Assembly: GCA_937928595.1 (NCBI GenBank)
Contig: CALGJV010000010.1
Coordinates: forward strand, 1 to 64,000
Reading direction: 5' to 3'
DNA: 64,000 bases
Source of the DNA: an uncultured Phycisphaerae bacterium
Lineage (GTDB): Bacteria > Planctomycetota > Phycisphaerae > UBA1845 > Fen-1342
Shown: positions 12,978 to 55,547 of the stretch, piece after piece
Layout of the letters: each line of letters starts with the position of its first letter
Position numbering within the stretch: the stretch's first letter is position 1
Translations under genes and position numbers: made by a program
Notes under the pieces: generated by a model
What the model was told of the DNA's origin: nothing
What the model saw: the letters and a program-made list of their open reading frames with translations, nothing else
Databases searched by the model: none

Positions 12978-13451
12978 GTTGACGTGCTACGCCCTCCGCC
13001 GCACAAGCCGGAGGCTGATTAGCATGCGGCTACTGCCTTCGGGTTAGAAGATCCGTCGGCGAGACGTCCGGCCGCATGTGCTGATCCGGGACGCAACCCC
13101 TGCGGTCGCCCGCTTGCCCCGCATTATCAGCCCATGCGCGCGGGGCACGGCTGCCCCGCGGGCTTCAAGCCTGTGAATCTCGATTTCTCAAGTGGCGCAA
13201 CCGGTTGCGTTAGAAAACCGCTTTTCCCGGACGCTTTCCGCATATCGGTCGCTTGACCCCGTTTCTGGGACCGGCCTAGAACCTCACGGCAGACCGCATC
13301 GTCTGCCCTTGCGGTCGTTGATCCATCGCGGACCGCTGCGTTTTCGAACGGTGCGCCGCGCACCCGCGCTCGGGCTGCGCGCCGTCTGTGGGCCGGGCGG
13401 CCGCTTTTCGCGGCGGCCCATTGGTTGCGGCTTCTTGAATGGAGGGAGTGT
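12978..13451. promoter_or_regulatory. divergent regulatory region with palindrome, hairpin and promoter
   Basis: Three elements stand out. CGCGGGGCA and TGCCCCGCG form a nine-pair hairpin with a four-base loop (13139-13160). CGCAACCGGTTGCG (13196-13209) is a perfect 14-bp palindrome. TTGACC-18-TAGAAC (13253-13282) is a candidate promoter for the plus-strand PEP-CTERM gene, with a transcript start near 13289 and a leader of about 160 bases. The palindrome lies 44 bases upstream of the -35 and could be an operator or activator site. No gene is visible in this stretch. Confidence 0.5.
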
Positions 13452-47667: not shown

Positions 47668-47737
47668 TGTCCGCGCCCCGCCGGGTGCACGGGCCGCGCC
47701 TCGTGGCCGGCGGCGTGCGTTCGCCGGCAACGGGGGC

Positions 47738-47794: not shown

Positions 47795-48316
47795 ATGGGT
47801 GGCGCAAAGCTCGAGCACGGTTCGGCGGCGGATCCGGTGGCCCGCGCCGCGCATGACACGCACGTCCGGCGCCGGCGGCGGGTGGTCCGCAATGCGGTGC
47901 TGCTACTGATCGTGACGGCGGCCCTGCTCGGCCTGATGGTGATGAACCGCGACGCGGCCGACGCGCGCGCCTGCCGTGCCCGCATGGAGTTCGCGGTCCG
48001 CGAGTTGCAGCGACTGGCGGAAGGCGGGCGTCCGGCGCCGGTGCCGCTGCCGACGATCCAGGGGGTCAGTCCGCCGGAGGCGTTTCACTTGCGCGACCAC
48101 GTCGATTGGAACGTGTTCTATGCCGAGCGCGGCGCCGGGACCGCCGTGGTGGGCGTCTGCGTGTGCCGGCGCAAGCACGATCGCTTCCTGCTGTCGGACG
48201 GGCGCTACGCGGTGGTCTGGCGACCGGCGGACAACCGCTACGAAATCGAGTGGATTCCCGAGGCCGACTACCCGGCCCGGGCCGCGGCCCTGGGCTTCAT
48301 CCCGGCGCGGCGCTGA
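47795..48316 (+). CDS. membrane-anchored protein, unknown
   Basis: A 173-residue protein. A basic cytoplasmic N-terminus (THVRRRRRVVRN, about 20-32) leads into one membrane helix (AVLLLIVTAALLGLMVM) and an extracytoplasmic domain of about 115 residues with well-defined strands (VGVCVCRRKHDRFLLSDGRY, NRYEIEWIPEADYP). No family is recognised. GGGGAGCAGG upstream of the ATG is the likely ribosome binding site. The gene lies just before lysA, which has its own promoter. Confidence 0.68.
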   Translation: MGGAKLEHGSAADPVARAAHDTHVRRRRRVVRNAVLLLIVTAALLGLMVMNRDAADARACRARMEFAVRELQRLAEGGRPAPVPLPTIQGVSPPEAFHLRDHVDWNVFYAERGAGTAVVGVCVCRRKHDRFLLSDGRYAVVWRPADNRYEIEWIPEADYPARAAALGFIPARR

Positions 48317-48332
48317 ACCGCGCTGCCGCTCC

Positions 48333-48338
48333 TATACT
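48333..48338 (+). promoter_or_regulatory. -10 element TATACT, predicts leaderless lysA mRNA
   Basis: TATACT ends six bases before the lysA ATG. A start seven bases past the hexamer is exactly the A of ATG, leaving no room for a Shine-Dalgarno. Confidence 0.65.
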
Positions 48339-48344
48339 AGCGGG

Positions 48345-49631
48345 ATGGACCTGTTCGAGTACCACGATGGGCACCTATGGTGCGAGGCGGTGCCGGTGCG
48401 CGACCTCGCGGCGCGCTACGGGACGCCGCTGTACGTGTACTCCGCGGGCACGCTGGCCGCGCACTACCACCGCATGCAGCAGGCCTTCGCGGAGCTTCAG
48501 CCGCTGATCTGCTACTCGGTCAAGTGCTGCTCGAACGTGCACATCCTGCGGCGGCTCGCGGCCCTCGGCTCCGGCTTCGACGTGGTGAGCGGTGGCGAGC
48601 TCTACCGGGCGCTGCGGGCCGGGGCCGATCCGGCGCACGTCGTCTTCGCCGGCGTGGGCAAGACGGCCCGCGAGATGCGCGAAGCCCTCGAGGCCGGCGT
48701 CGGACTGCTCAATGTTGAGTCCGCGTCCGAGCTCGAGGCGCTGGCGGCCGTCGCGGCGGAGGTCGGCGTCCGGGCCGAGGCGGCCCTCCGCGTGATCCCC
48801 GAGGTGGACGCCCGGACGCACGCGTACACCACGACCGGCACGCGCGCGAACAAGTTCGGCTTGCCGTTCGAGCAGGCCGCCGAGCTCGTGCGGGCCTTCG
48901 CGGGCTCGCCGCACGTACACATTCGCGGGCTGCACCTGCACATCGGCTCGCCCGTGTACGACCCGCAGGCCTACGCGGTCAGCATCGGCCGGGCGCTCGA
49001 GCTGCTGGACCGGCTGGCGGACGCGGGGCTCGCGCTGGACACGCTCGACATCGGCGGCGGGTACGGGGCGCATTACAAAGGGCACGAGTCCCCCGCCGCG
49101 ACCGACTATGCCGCCGCCATCGTGCCGCTCCTGCGCGACCGCAACCTGCGCGTCATACTGGAGCCGGGTCGGTCAATCGCGGCCAACGCCGGCGTGCTGG
49201 TGACGCGCGTGCTGCACACGAAGGAGACGGGCTGCCGCCGGTTCGTGATCGTCGACGCGGCCATGACCGAGCTGATCCGCCCGGCGCTGTACAGCGCGTA
49301 CCATTTCATCTGGCCGGTGGAGGCCGGCGAGCGCGTGCCGCGCGACTGGACGCCGGCGCAGCCGCTGGACGGCCTCGTGACGGTCGACCTGGTCGGGCCG
49401 GTGTGCGAGAGCGGGGACTTCCTCGCCCAGGACCGGCCGCTGCCGCCGCTGCGGCCGGGGGACCTGGTCGCGGTATTTACGGCCGGCGCGTATGGAATGG
49501 CAATGGCGAGCCAGTACAACTCGCGTCCGCGGCCGGCGGAAGTGCTGGTGGAACAGGGTGCCGCTCGGTTGATCCGGCGACGGGAGACGTACGCGGACCT
49601 GCTCCGGGCGGAAGACGACCTCGACGCCTGA
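48345..49631 (+). CDS. lysA: diaminopimelate decarboxylase
   Basis: A 428-residue fold-type III PLP enzyme. The PLP lysine is in ICYSVKCCSNVHILRRL; GFDVVSGGELYRAL, the HLHIGSPV segment, the phosphate-binding DIGGGYGAHY, and EPGRSIAANAG follow in the expected order. The C-terminal CESGDFLAQDRPLPPLRPGD segment supplies the active-site Cys of the dimer partner. It makes lysine from meso-diaminopimelate. Related arginine or carboxynorspermidine decarboxylases are less likely given CESGD and EPGR. The mRNA is probably leaderless. RibF follows after 37 bases. Confidence 0.94.
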   Translation: MDLFEYHDGHLWCEAVPVRDLAARYGTPLYVYSAGTLAAHYHRMQQAFAELQPLICYSVKCCSNVHILRRLAALGSGFDVVSGGELYRALRAGADPAHVVFAGVGKTAREMREALEAGVGLLNVESASELEALAAVAAEVGVRAEAALRVIPEVDARTHAYTTTGTRANKFGLPFEQAAELVRAFAGSPHVHIRGLHLHIGSPVYDPQAYAVSIGRALELLDRLADAGLALDTLDIGGGYGAHYKGHESPAATDYAAAIVPLLRDRNLRVILEPGRSIAANAGVLVTRVLHTKETGCRRFVIVDAAMTELIRPALYSAYHFIWPVEAGERVPRDWTPAQPLDGLVTVDLVGPVCESGDFLAQDRPLPPLRPGDLVAVFTAGAYGMAMASQYNSRPRPAEVLVEQGAARLIRRRETYADLLRAEDDLDA

Positions 49632-49668
49632 CCGCCGGCGCGCCGCGGCCGGCCGTAAGCGAGCCTCC

Positions 49669-50658
49669 ATGCGGGTGTACCACGCACTGAGCGAGTTCGT
49701 GCCGCCGGCCGGTGGGGCCGTGGTCACGATCGGCAATTTCGACGGCGTGCATCGCGGGCACGCCGCGATCCTGACCACCGCGCGGCGCTACGCCGAGCAG
49801 GCCGGGGCGGGCCTGGTCGTGCTGACGTTCGAACCGCACCCGCTGGCGGTGCTGGCGCCCGAGCGCGCGCCGGACCGCCTGACGACGCCCGCCGAGAAGC
49901 TGACGCTGCTTGAGCGGGCGGGCGTGGCCGCGACGATCGTGCTGGCCAGCGAACCGGCCCTGTTCGCGCTCGAGGCGGAGGATTTCCTGGCGTCGCTCGT
50001 CACGCACACGCGCCCGCGCGCGATCGTGGAGGGGCCGGATTTCCGCTTCGGCCGGGGCCGGCGCGGGTCGCTGGCGACGCTCACGCAGCACGCGGCCGGG
50101 TGGGGGTACGAAGTCATCACGGTGCCGGCGCTGCGGGCGACGGACCTGCCGACCGCACCGACCATCGGGAGCACGTCGATCCGGCAGGCGCTGCGCGACG
50201 GGCGGCTCGACGAGGCCAACCAGATGCTCGGGCGGCCGTACCGCGTGACGGGCGTCGTCGGCGTGGGGCACGGCCGCGGCGCGACGATCGGGTATCCGAC
50301 GGCCAACCTCGAGCAATCGCCGCACCTGCTGCCGCAGGACGCGGTGTACGCGGCCGTCGCGCAGCGCGCCGACGGCACGCTGCACCTGGCGGCGGTGAAC
50401 GTGGGTCCGCAGCCGACGTTCGGGCAGGGGGCGGCGCGGGTCGAAGCGTTTCTGCTGGATTTCCAGGGTGATCTGCGGGGGCAGCGGCTGGGTCTGCACT
50501 TCCTGGCGCGGCTGCGACCGCAGCAGCGCTTCGCGGACGTCGCGGCTCTGGTGGCCCAGATCGACGCCGACGTGGCGGCGGTGCGCTCGCACGGGGCGCG
50601 GCTGGAGGAGCTGCGCGCGGCGCTGCCGGCGCTGTGGGGGCGGCGAAGCCTCCCGTGA
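49669..50658 (+). CDS. ribF: riboflavin kinase / FAD synthetase
   Basis: A 329-residue bifunctional enzyme. The N-terminal FAD synthetase domain (about 1-185) has the nucleotidyltransferase motif TIGNFDGVHRGHAAIL and GPDFRFGRGRRGSLATL, with STSIRQALRDGRLDEA at its end. The C-terminal riboflavin kinase domain (about 190-325) has VVGVGHGRGATIGYPTANL and the core AVNVGPQPTFG. It converts riboflavin to FMN and then FAD. Length and both domains are standard. It probably shares a transcript with lysA. Confidence 0.95.
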   Translation: MRVYHALSEFVPPAGGAVVTIGNFDGVHRGHAAILTTARRYAEQAGAGLVVLTFEPHPLAVLAPERAPDRLTTPAEKLTLLERAGVAATIVLASEPALFALEAEDFLASLVTHTRPRAIVEGPDFRFGRGRRGSLATLTQHAAGWGYEVITVPALRATDLPTAPTIGSTSIRQALRDGRLDEANQMLGRPYRVTGVVGVGHGRGATIGYPTANLEQSPHLLPQDAVYAAVAQRADGTLHLAAVNVGPQPTFGQGAARVEAFLLDFQGDLRGQRLGLHFLARLRPQQRFADVAALVAQIDADVAAVRSHGARLEELRAALPALWGRRSLP

Positions 50659-50710
50659 GCCGGCGGGGCGTCGGGCGGGGCGCGGCTCCCCGCCGGGTCG
50701 TCCGCCGCGC

Positions 50711-50745
50711 AAAAAAGAGAGGAGCCGGACTTGCGTCCGGCTCCT
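50711..50745 (-). terminator. intrinsic terminator of the PEP-CTERM gene
   Basis: AGGAGCCGGAC pairs perfectly with GTCCGGCTCCT (11 pairs, four-base loop TTGC). Read on the minus strand the hairpin is followed by CTCTTTTTT. This is a textbook rho-independent terminator directly after the minus-strand PEP-CTERM gene, and its A-run on the other side could also serve ribF on the plus strand less well. Confidence 0.85.
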
Positions 50746-50779
50746 GAAAAAATCTCAGTCGGCTGTTGCGGTGGTCAGA

Positions 50780-51469
50780 TTAGCGACGACGAATCGCCAG
50801 ACCCGCCAGGCCGAGGAGCAGCAGGCTCGCCGGCTCCGGAACGAACGTCACCGTCGCGCTGTTGACGGGCGGATCCGGAATCGTGACGCCCTCCGCGTTG
50901 CGAATCGCGATGCCCAGCTGCGGGTTCAGGCTGACCGTCAGCTCCTGGCCGGCGGTCGCGTTCTCGACGCGGACGACACCGAGCAGGAACTTCGTGCCTT
51001 CGCTGCCGGTCGGCAGGGTCACCAGATCGCCCGGATTGACGTCGCTGCTCGTCCAGTTGACGATGCCTCTCGCGATCACCGCCGCCATGACGCCGTTGTG
51101 GACGTAAACCGGCTGGGCACCGTCCCACCGCTTATACGCGGGGGGGGGGGTGGTCTTGTTGTGGCGGTAGATCACGCTCTTGGTGCCGTCATACGCCGCC
51201 GTGCCCTGGATCTGGAGCTGGATGCCGTAGATCTGGTCGTAGTCGTTCTCATTGACGAACTGGCCCCACAGGAAGAGGTCGTACGAACCCTCATCCAGCG
51301 TGGGCCCGATCGGGGTGGGGCCAGTGAAGCCCGGCAAGAAGTTCGTCAGCGCGGTGCTGTACTTCAGAGCATCGGAGGACATGCCGGTCGACGAGAAAAA
51401 CAGGTTGATGTCCGCGCTCGCCGCGCTAACGCCGGCGATCAGAGCAACCGCAAGCAAAGTCTTCTTCAT
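50780..51469 (-). CDS. PEP-CTERM surface protein with poly-C tract
   Basis: A 229-residue exported protein. The signal peptide is [19 protein letters not shown]; the body is a beta-type domain with no family I know; the C-terminal tail is [16 protein letters not shown] plus RRR. A run of eleven C in the coding strand encodes Pro108-110 ([10 protein letters not shown]). Slippage there would remove the sorting tail, so expression may switch. The promoter (TTGCAA-17-TATAAC) and terminator are both strong, so this is a complete, probably well-expressed single gene. GGGAG lies about 12 bases upstream of the ATG. Confidence 0.87.
51140..51150. repeat. 11-base G/C homopolymer inside a surface-protein gene
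   Basis: Eleven consecutive G on the plus strand (C in the coding strand). It is by far the longest homopolymer of the window and lies in the middle of the PEP-CTERM coding sequence. A gain or loss of one base would frameshift the protein before its sorting tail. Confidence 0.85.
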
Positions 51470-51567
51470 GATCCCATTCTCCCATCAAAGTGCCAGTGGA
51501 GGTGCTTCCAGCCTCCCGAGACCTAAATGTTCCTGGGTGACGCTCACCCTTCCTCTCACGTCAGTAG

Positions 51568-51596
51568 GTTATACCCCGGCACATGGGCGATTGCAA
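51568..51596 (-). promoter_or_regulatory. promoter TTGCAA-17-TATAAC for the PEP-CTERM gene
   Basis: Minus-strand TTGCAA (51591-51596) and TATAAC (51568-51573) with a 17-base spacer. The transcript start near 51561 leaves a leader of about 90 bases, which contains a GGGTGA-GCG-TCACCC hairpin. Confidence 0.75.
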
Positions 51597-51846
51597 GCGA
51601 GAGTTTTGCTAAAACCACCCACCGCACCGGGTGCCGATAAGCTAGTCGGGCGCGGTTTCGGACGCGTATTTCCACCCTGCTTCGGTCCGCCAAAATCCGC
51701 TCGGAAACTCGTCCATCGCACTGACACCCGGCAACCCGGGCGACCCCCTCGCGACCGCCGAGCCGGTTCGATTCGGCCCACGCCGGAGCCGCCGCCCGGC
51801 CCACCGCCGGCGGGCCCGCGGAGGCAAGTCGGCTGCCACGATGGGC

Positions 51847-51875
51847 TTGCAAGCGAGCAGGCCTTGTGTTATCGT
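51847..51875 (+). promoter_or_regulatory. promoter TTGCAA-17-TATCGT for smc
   Basis: TTGCAA (51847-51852) and TATCGT (51870-51875) with a 17-base spacer; transcript start near 51882 and a leader of about 95 bases. The 250 bases between this and the divergent PEP-CTERM promoter hold no gene. Confidence 0.6.
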
Positions 51876-51977
51876 CCCCGCGATTGCCCAAGCGGTAGTG
51901 GTACGGCCGCTCCCGGTCGGCGCCGGGCGGGTGGCTGGACGCCCCGGGCCTGCGGCCGCGAGCCGCCGGAAGAGCCG

Positions 51978-54900
51978 GTGTTCCTTAAGAAGGTCATTTT
52001 GCAGGGGTTCAAGAGCTTCGCCGACCGGACGGAGTTCGAGTTCGGCGACGGCATTACGGGCATCGTCGGCCCGAACGGGTGCGGCAAGAGCAACATCCTG
52101 GACGCCGTGCGGTGGGTGCTGGGGGAGCAGTCCGCCCGGAGCCTGCGCGGGGGGAAGATGGCGGATGTGATCTTCGCGGGTTCGCGGTCGCGGAAGGCGG
52201 CCCATTTCGCGGAGGTCGCGCTGACGTTCGACAACCGCGCTCGCGTGCTCCACAGCGAGCACGACGAGGTGACGGTCGGCCGCATGTTGTACGCCAGCGG
52301 TGAGAGCGAATACCGCATCAACGGGAATGTTTGCCGGCTGAAGGACATCCGCGACCTGCTGCTTGACACCGGGGTCGGCGTGGACGCGTACAGCGTGATC
52401 GAGCAGGGCCGGGTGGACCAGCTCCTCCAGGCCGATCCCGTCGAGCGGCGCGAGATCTTCGAAGAAGCCGCGGGGATCAGCCGCTACAAGGTGCGGCGGG
52501 CCGAGGCGCAGCGGAAGCTGGAGCGCACGCGGGAGAACCTCGCTCGGCTCCAGGACATTCTCGATGAACTGGAGCGCCGCCTCCGCAGCGTGAAGCTGGC
52601 CGCGGGCAAGGCGCGGAGCTACCAGGAATACGACGCGCGCCTGCGCGAGCTGCGTTCCGCGTTCAGCCTCGCGGAGTACCACGAGCTGGAGCAGACGCGG
52701 CGCGCGGCACAGGCCCGGGCGGACGAGCTCGCGGCCGCGCTTCAGGCGGACCGCGGCGCGCTGGCGGCGGCGCAGGCGGACGCCGACGAGCAGCAGGGGG
52801 CGGTGCTGGCGCTCGAGCAGGCGCTGGAGGCGGCGGAGCACGCGCTCCAGGCGTTGCAGAGCGAGCTGAGCGCCTTGGTGGAGCGGATCGCTCAAGGGGA
52901 GCGGCGGCGGGCGGAGCTCCAGGCGCTGCGCGCGCGGCGCGCGGCACAGGCCGAGGAGCTGGCGCGGCAGGCGGCCGCCCTGCGGGCCGAGGCCGAGGCC
53001 GAGGAAGCCGCCCTCGCGCGGTTCTGCGCCGCGGAGCGGGCCAGCGGCGACCGCATCGCGGCGGTCCAGGGCGAACGCAATGCGGCCCAGGCGCGCACGG
53101 ACGATTCACGTCGCGCGCTGGAGCGCGAGAAGACGGCGGCGTTCGAAGCGGTGCGGCGCGCGGCGCTGCTTCAGAACGAGCAAGCGAACCTGACGCAGCA
53201 GCGCCAGCGACTCGGCGCGCAGGCCGAACGGCACGCGACGCGTCAGGCGGACCTCGCGGCGGCGCGCGACGAGGTGCAGGCCCGCGCGGCGGAGACCGCC
53301 GAGCGGCTGGCGGCGCTCGATGCCCAGGTGGCCGCCCTGGCGGACACGCTGCGCGCGGATGACGCCCGGCTCGCGGCGCTGGCCGACGAATCGGCACAGG
53401 TCGAGGCGGCGCTGGGGGCTGCCCGGGAGCAGCGCAGCGCCCTGCAATCGCGACTCGGCCTGCTCGAGGATCTCGAGCGGCGGCTCGAAGGCGTTGACGA
53501 GGGCACCCGCGCGGTGCTGGCGTGGCGGGCCGCGGGCGGCGCCGACGGCCCGGTGCTCGGACTCGTGGCCGACCTGATCCGGATCGACGACCCGCGCGTC
53601 GCGGTGCTGCAACCGGTGCTCACGACGTTCGAGAACCACGTCGTCGTGCGGGATCTGGCCGCGTTCCTGGCGTGGCGCGCGGCCCGCGGTCCGCTGGCCG
53701 GTCCGGTCCGCGTGCTGTCGGCGGCGCGGCTCGCGGAGCGCCCGGCGCTGCTCAGCTACGTCGGCGTACCGGGCGTGGTCGCGCGGGCGCTGGACTGGGT
53801 GACCGTGGCGCCGGAGCACCGCGCGCTGGCCGAGCACCTGCTGGGTCGCACGCTCGTGGTGGAGACGCTGGAGCGCGCGATCGAGTTGGCCGCGGAGGCG
53901 CCGCCGGGCTACGTGTTCGTGACGCTCGACGGGCACGCGGTCGGGGCGGACGGGCGGCTCGTGTGCGGCGCGCCGGCCGGGGCGGCGGGACTCATCAGCC
54001 GGAAGGCGGAGATCCGACAGCTTCAGGCGGAGCTGGCGGAGGTCGAGCAGCAGTTGACGACGCTCGCCCGGCAGCGGGCGGCCATCGAAGCGGCCAGCTC
54101 GGACGCCCAGCTCCAGAAGCAGGGGCGATTGCAGGAGATCGCGACGCTGCAACGCGAGCAGGTCGAGCTGCGGGGACAACGGGCGCGGCTGGCCGACGAG
54201 GGCCAGCGGTTGCAGCGCGAGTCGGGGGTCATCAACGGCGAGCTGACGGCGGTGCAGCGGGCGCTCGACGAGGTGGCGGCGCAACTGGCCCAGTTGATGG
54301 AACAGGTGGCCGCGGTCGGGGCGGCGCAGCAGGCGCACGAAACGCGCGTCGGCGAGCTGGCCGACGAGCTGGCGGCGCTCGAAGCCGTGCTGGGCGACCT
54401 GGCCCAGCAGTACACGGCGGCCGTGGTCGCGCGCGAGCGTGCGGCCGAGCAGCGCGCGGCGGCCGAGCGGGCCCTGCGGGAGCTTCGCGGTCGCGTGGCC
54501 GCGGTGGAGCGGGAGCAGGCGGAAGCGACCGCGGAAGCCGCGGGGGCCGAGTCGCAGGGGGCGGCGGCCGAGGCGGAGGTGGCTGCGGCGCGGGAGCGGC
54601 TGGCGGCGGGTCAGGCGGAGGCGGTGACGCGGCAGGCGGAGATCACCGCGCAGCGGGCGCGGCGGCAGGAGCTGCGGGCGGCGCAGGCGGAGCGGGCGAA
54701 GGCGGTCACGGCGCTGCGGACGCAGATCGAGCAGCACGAAGCGGCCTGGCACGAGGCGCAGATGGCGCTGCGTGAGACCGCGGTGCGGACGGAGACGCTC
54801 GTGGCCCGCGTGCGGGACGAGCTGGGGCTGGACCTGGCGGCGCGGTACGCGGATTACGAGGCGGCGGAGCAGGACTGGGCGGCGGTTCGTGCGGAGATCG

Positions 54901-55547
54901 AGGAGCTGCGCGGGAAGATCGCGCGGCTGGGCAACGTAAACCTCGACGCCCTAGCGGAACTCGCGGAGCTGACGCCGCGGTACGAGCACATGACGGCCCA
55001 GCGGCAGGACCTGCTGGACTCGATCGGCCAGCTCGAGGCGCTGATCGCCCAGCTGGACGAGGAGTCACGCACGCGCTTCGCGGCGGCGTTCGAGGAGATC
55101 CGCGGGCATTTCCAGGAGCTGTTCCGCAAACTTTTCGGGGGCGGAAAGGCCGATGTTCTCCTGGAGGACCCGGCGCGCCCGCTGGAGTGCGGGATCGAAA
55201 TCATCGCGCGGCCGCCGGGCAAGGAGCCGCAGTCGATCTCGCTGCTGTCGGGCGGCGAGAAGACGATGGCCGCGGTCGCGCTGCTGATGGCGGTGTTCCG
55301 CAGCCGGCCGTCGCCGTTCGCAATTCTGGATGAAGTCGATGCAGCCCTTGATGAATCGAACGTGGATTGTTTCAATAGCCTGCTGGTTGAGTTCCTGTCG
55401 TTGTCGCAGTTCGTGGTGATCACGCACAACAAGCGCACGATGGCGTGCTGCGATCGGTTGTACGGGATCACGATGGAAGAGCCGGGCGTCAGCAAACGGG
55501 TCAGCGTCCGGTTTGAAGAGCGTGTGAGCACGCCCAGTGTGGCGTGA
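51978..55547 (+). CDS. smc: chromosome segregation SMC ATPase
   Basis: A 1189-residue SMC protein of standard length. The head N-terminal part has [20 protein letters not shown] and Walker [20 protein letters not shown]; a long coiled coil rich in Ala, Arg, Glu and Gln (about 165-500) leads to the hinge (about 505-660, with [20 protein letters not shown] and [16 protein letters not shown]); a second coiled coil (about 670-1020) returns to the head with [15 protein letters not shown] and Walker [13 protein letters not shown]. With ScpA and ScpB it compacts and segregates chromosomes. GTG is the start because it gives the canonical N-terminus; GGAAG is a few bases upstream. A tiny basic protein gene follows after 34 bases. 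Confidence 0.96.

Follow-up and report, generated by a model that had tools for sequence, protein, structure and literature searches.

Phase-variation tracts are often found in surface-protein genes, and contingency tracts are subject to quick turnover. Deep sequencing of Neisseria meningitidis showed homopolymers of at least 8 nt to be predominantly variable (PMC5084427), and mismatch repair (MMR) made no difference to switching at G10–G13 tracts in meningococci (PMC4085013). For the PEP-CTERM/exosortase system, Haft and colleagues (PMC1569441) indicated that further PEP-CTERM regulatory motifs were still to be found, both inside and outside the Proteobacteria. Our full-text search of a literature collection turned up no paper on a phase-variable exosortase substrate in Planctomycetes. 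A sequence-only reading of the 64,000-nt stretch of DNA from an uncultured Phycisphaerae bacterium analysed here (the window) had proposed phase variation at a run of eleven C residues (C11) in a PEP-CTERM gene. We took as the marks of a contingency locus a homopolymer of at least 8 nt within the coding region or promoter, a change in expression or truncation of the product upon the gain or loss of a unit, a length that differs among cells of a population or among strains, and a tract over-represented with respect to chance or recurrent in the surface genes of the genome. We conclude that the C11 run is a real, in-frame, species-private and slip-prone site that probably arose by chance and was not selected as a switch, evolved control of the gene being more likely to reside in its 5' leader.

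The features of the locus are given in Table 1. The tail of the gene product scored above the cut-offs of both Pfam PF07589 (23.8 bits, cut-off 20.7) and TIGR02595 (18.8, cut-off 16), and the assignment to the PEP-CTERM proteins made in the sequence-only reading was therefore correct. An exosortase gene is present in the genome (PF09721 at 173 bits, cut-off 25.7); according to the PEP-CTERM/exosortase model (PMC1569441), a protein without the tail should therefore no longer be anchored. The terminator previously ascribed to the gene was recovered, and the promoter is plausible: TTGCAA-17-TATAAC can be made out by eye, and the same layout precedes homologous genes from other genera, but a strict, simple promoter scan upstream of the gene gave no match. 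The neighbourhood (47976–55547) is of a housekeeping nature, with a gene for a PLP-dependent decarboxylase (lysA-like), ribF, the PEP-CTERM gene and smc, which is divergent from the PEP-CTERM gene.

Table 1. Coordinates of the features identified at the PEP-CTERM locus (positions in the window)
Feature	Position	Strand	Remarks
Intrinsic terminator	50720..50745	-	11-bp stem-loop followed by a T-run
Gene for 229-aa PEP-CTERM protein	50780..51469	-	Carries a signal peptide (by inspection), a core that is probably cohesin-like and a PEP-CTERM tail; homologues align to either flank of the tract
PEP-CTERM sorting tail (aa 210-229)	50783..50842	-	PF07589 and TIGR02595 above cut-off; removed by any frameshift in the tract
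C11 tract	51140..51150	-	Codons for Thr-Pro-Pro-Pro (aa 107-110)
Conserved 5' leader (model R1)	51470..51560	-	Likely to span the entire 5' UTR
Shine-Dalgarno-like GGGAGA before the start codon	51478..51483	-	Conserved column; position by inspection
Leader hairpin 2, GGAGG-CTGGAAGCA-CCTCC	51498..51516	-	
Leader hairpin 1, GGGTGA-GCG-TCACCC	51535..51549	-	
Putative sigma-70-type promoter, TTGCAA-17-TATAAC	51568..51596	-	By inspection; same layout upstream of homologous genes in other genera

The AlphaFold2 model of the protein, built from seven sequences, had a mean pLDDT of 57 and a pTM of 0.63. With a model of this mean pLDDT, cohesin modules topped the Foldseek matches (E 4e-4) and led in VIA-align (Z up to 8.7, rmsd 3.5 over 127 residues). 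Nearly all the top structural matches were cohesins, at sequence identities of 4–16%, and a Pfam search of the protein returned no cohesin match. The core of the protein may, with low confidence, be a cohesin-like sandwich, the lead being a module of this kind anchored by exosortase.

The tract reads as G11 on the plus strand and as C11 on the coding strand, at nt 320–330 of the coding sequence (CDS), and its mid-gene location was correctly described in the sequence-only reading. It is read in frame as ACC ACC CCC CCC CCC GCG (Thr-Thr-Pro-Pro-Pro-Ala, the first five residues corresponding to aa 106–110). The nearest homologues found, and the only matches in a homologue scan of genome contigs, were paralogues from the Phycisphaerae MAG DeMMO2_9 (41–58% identical), which align on both flanks of the tract and thereby confirm the frame, most of them with four residues fewer at that point. 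The tract sits within a loop preceding a conserved RWD motif that varies in both length and composition. In the AlphaFold2 model it lies within a low-confidence stretch (residues 102–121; loop pLDDT below 50), consistent with a variable loop. A +1 slip yields a product of 112 aa and a −1 slip one of 130 aa, the PEP-CTERM tail being lost in both cases, and this C11 run is hence a coding homopolymer of the kind in which the gain or loss of a unit truncates the product, as had been predicted. The claim that the tract is long enough to slip also finds support in the variability of meningococcal homopolymers of at least 8 nt (PMC5084427). Together with the indifference of G10–G13 switching to MMR (PMC4085013), this makes slippage at C11 physically likely; the genome encodes MutS and MutL, and for the latter reason their presence argues little against it. 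Slippage at the tract itself, leaving selection aside, is therefore plausible.

The assembly comprises 3.69 Mb in 46 contigs, and the genome has a GC content of 70%. As first stated, no other homopolymer in the window comes near the C11 run, which is the only one longer than 8 (followed by one C8 and several runs of 7). No other G/C run in the assembly is as long: among those reaching 8 or more, 49 measure 8 and six measure 9, two measure 10 and lie on contigs 4 and 22, and this one alone reaches 11. An automatic sorting of these runs into coding and non-coding was set aside, its cut-off being so strict that the C11 tract itself was classed as non-coding. For the window taken by itself, a run of this length is mildly out of the ordinary: 13% of the recodings of its genes with synonymous codons produce one of 11 or more, and Markov models of order 1 to 4 expect about 0.02–0.09 such runs. 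For the whole genome, about 50 runs of at least 11 are expected from zero-order composition, about 5 from a first-order Markov model, about 0.9 to 2.9 from models of order 2 to 4, and 0.2–0.4 from the extrapolated tail of runs of at least 8. Since the run-length tail, the Markov models and the synonymous recoding predict about one, a single C11 is unremarkable in a genome of this size. Long C runs are, moreover, ordinary in this clade, as runs of C10 or longer were present in 25 of the 27 genomes of the family, often in greater numbers than here (from 1 to several hundred overlapping windows per genome). Genome G007 (family f1) had 739 overlapping C10 windows, far above its relatives. Against a chance origin stand the probability of only about 0.006 of encoding Thr-Pro-Pro-Pro entirely in all-C codons under the codon use of this genome, the surface-protein gene that hosts the tract, and the mild excess at the level of the window.

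No C/G run longer than 4 was found in the tract loop among the relatives compared. Two more distant proteins, the paralogue from the same genome (contig 8) and the homologue from genome G089, have Thr-Pro-Pro or Thr-Ser-Pro-Pro at this position, in mixed codons. Coding homopolymers longer than 6 were found in only one of the 29 leader-bearing genes with a coding region readable at least in part, the C11 gene itself; the other 28 had none, and neither did about ten additional PEP-CTERM genes from this genome. Judging from these sequences, the tract is private to this species among the orthologues and paralogues compared, and nothing in them points to a group of contingency loci in the genome or its relatives. 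The latter result constitutes a weak negative, because contingency tracts turn over fast and the relatives from other genera are distant (at most 58% identity). The tract is thus neither over-represented, its frequency being near the genome expectation, nor recurrent in the surface genes, the runs in the other PEP-CTERM genes examined being no longer than 6.

The most likely origin of the C11 run is a chance choice of codons together with local slippage, in a C-rich stretch coding for Thr-Pro-Pro-Pro in a GC-rich genome; the run would persist as a slip-prone site, in a loop of variable length within a surface protein that is anchored by exosortase and probably cohesin-like. In a minority of cells, occasional slippage would give rise to protein that is truncated and not anchored, with no selection as a switch, and the evolved control of the gene would more likely be exerted by the 5' leader, common to the gene family across one Phycisphaerae family. 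We regard as unlikely a selected contingency locus, in which slipped-strand mispairing would leave the anchored protein ON at 11, 8 or 14 C and OFF at 10 or 12 C. The length and base type of the tract match those of known poly-C/G switches (PMC5084427), truncation removes the anchor of a surface protein in a genome with an exosortase, and no G/C run in the genome is longer. However, this tract is not common to any of the orthologues or paralogues compared, the other PEP-CTERM genes examined in this genome have no tract longer than 6, and the frequency of runs fits chance at the genome scale. The slip-prone length and the truncations of the phase variation originally proposed therefore stand, whereas its interpretation as a switch finds no echo in relatives, in the other PEP-CTERM genes or in the genome-wide frequency. 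An error of sequencing or assembly, such that the true tract length would differ, is highly improbable: homopolymers are error-prone and the genome is a 46-contig assembly, but the assembled length keeps a single open frame, with homology on both sides and through to the PEP-CTERM tail, and only C8, C14 and similar lengths would keep this frame too. Least probable of all is a function at the present length, through ribosome stalling at the encoded Pro-Pro-Pro, a type of motif with an established dependence on EF-P, or through slowing of RNA polymerase by the G11 template strand, given that the tract is absent from relatives and nothing conserved suggests a role. If the tract varied in the population, the protein would qualify as a candidate for a phase-variable substrate of exosortase in Planctomycetes; as matters stand, the C11 run is an ordinary slip-prone site, and the leader matters more.

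The stronger signal at this gene is indeed the conserved leader, which had not been listed previously, rather than the tract. This leader, of about 90 nt, lies directly upstream of the gene and is conserved far better than the protein. We built a covariance model (R1), with 17 leaders aligned. R1 has a single copy in this genome, ahead of the C11 gene (E 8e-22), and copies were found in 19 of the 27 genomes of the family, mostly 1–3 per genome and often in tandem pairs. Three further PEP-CTERM genes in the window are without the leader (ORFs starting near 13451 (+) and 33292 (+), and a third near 732–908 (−)). In DeMMO2_9, four contigs (C46, C132, C74 and C104) carry at least 8 copies of the PEP-CTERM family in tandem groups, only two of them with the leader. 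In a class sample of 298 genomes, 12 were positive, all 12 from the same family, and the leader was not found outside it, with stricter filters that may overlook weak copies. We read thirty distinct leaders (L087–L116); wherever the gene that follows is complete (26 cases), its product is a PEP-CTERM protein, the remaining four genes being incomplete in the sequence read. The leader thus occupies a fixed upstream position relative to one gene family, as is characteristic of cis-regulatory RNAs. The leader-associated proteins form two groups of one remote family (hhalign probability 94.7%, E 6e-8). Rfam matches to HgcG (in the SMC gene) and STnc450 (at 47696) were below the gathering scores and were taken as chance.

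The leader contains two hairpins. In 27 of the 30 leaders the stem of hairpin 1 measures 5 bp or more; this hairpin is lost in L100, L109 and L112, and is rebuilt from other bases (AAGGTGC/GCACCTT, AGGTGAG/CTCACCT and GGTGGG/CCCACC) in L113, L098 (two copies) and L115. Hairpin 2 is nearly invariant. In the model-fitted alignment, which leans towards structure, double changes were observed at 5 of the 10 pairs, a number reached in 0 of 500 shuffles, whereas a sequence-only alignment of the leaders displayed little covariation. Single-sequence folding of four leaders gave a stability no greater than that of shuffles. With this covariation set against the scant signal of the sequence-only alignment and the lack of an excess in folding, a small RNA element in the leader is favoured but not proven. 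The leader may possibly act instead as a DNA operator, but both arms of hairpin 1 have been replaced in some leaders, which argues against this for that hairpin. A sigma-54 site was considered, the sequence TGGCAC being present, and dropped, as inspection showed no −12 GC element at the distance required. Binding of CsrA to a GGA in the loop was likewise dropped: the conserved loop core is GAAGCA, and several members lack the GGA. Some members, but not others, could form a P1 helix (TGAGA:TCTCA) enclosing hairpin 1, and a helix shared by all is hence not claimed here.

Returning to the RNA element, the effect of this two-hairpin untranslated region is probably on how stable the mRNA is or how well it is translated. 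Two alternative pairings are conceivable for CCUCC in hairpin 2, one with the GGAGG of the opposite arm and the other with GGAG in the Shine-Dalgarno sequence. We tentatively propose, with somewhat less than even confidence, that the leader is a cis-regulatory RNA not described before, belonging to one Phycisphaerae family and controlling the expression of exosortase-anchored cohesin-like surface proteins, perhaps through this pairing of hairpin 2 with the Shine-Dalgarno sequence.

The locus resembles the poly-C/G contingency loci of Neisseria and Campylobacter in having a C/G homopolymer of comparable length inside a surface-protein gene, where single-base slips truncate the product. Unlike these loci, it offers a candidate tract, with no family of tracts in the surface genes of the genome and no counterpart in relatives. 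The predicted core resembles cellulosomal and non-cellulosomal cohesin modules in structural comparisons, but differs from them in its low sequence identity, the modest pLDDT of the model and the absence of a Pfam cohesin match. Like Rfam cis-regulatory leaders, the element combines conserved sequence with small hairpins in a 5' UTR; however, it matched no Rfam 15 family, either here or at 8 loci of relatives (E up to 1). The gene agrees with the PEP-CTERM/exosortase system (PMC1569441) in having an N-terminal signal, a C-terminal PEP-CTERM tail, an exosortase in the genome, and a single-gene arrangement with its own upstream region and terminator. The published upstream motif of that system is a proteobacterial sigma-54/PrsR site (PMC1569441), whereas here a leader with hairpins is found downstream of the promoter. 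The leader is therefore a candidate for one of the further PEP-CTERM motifs that Haft and colleagues expected, its gene set and species range being defined, and it lends itself to direct testing.
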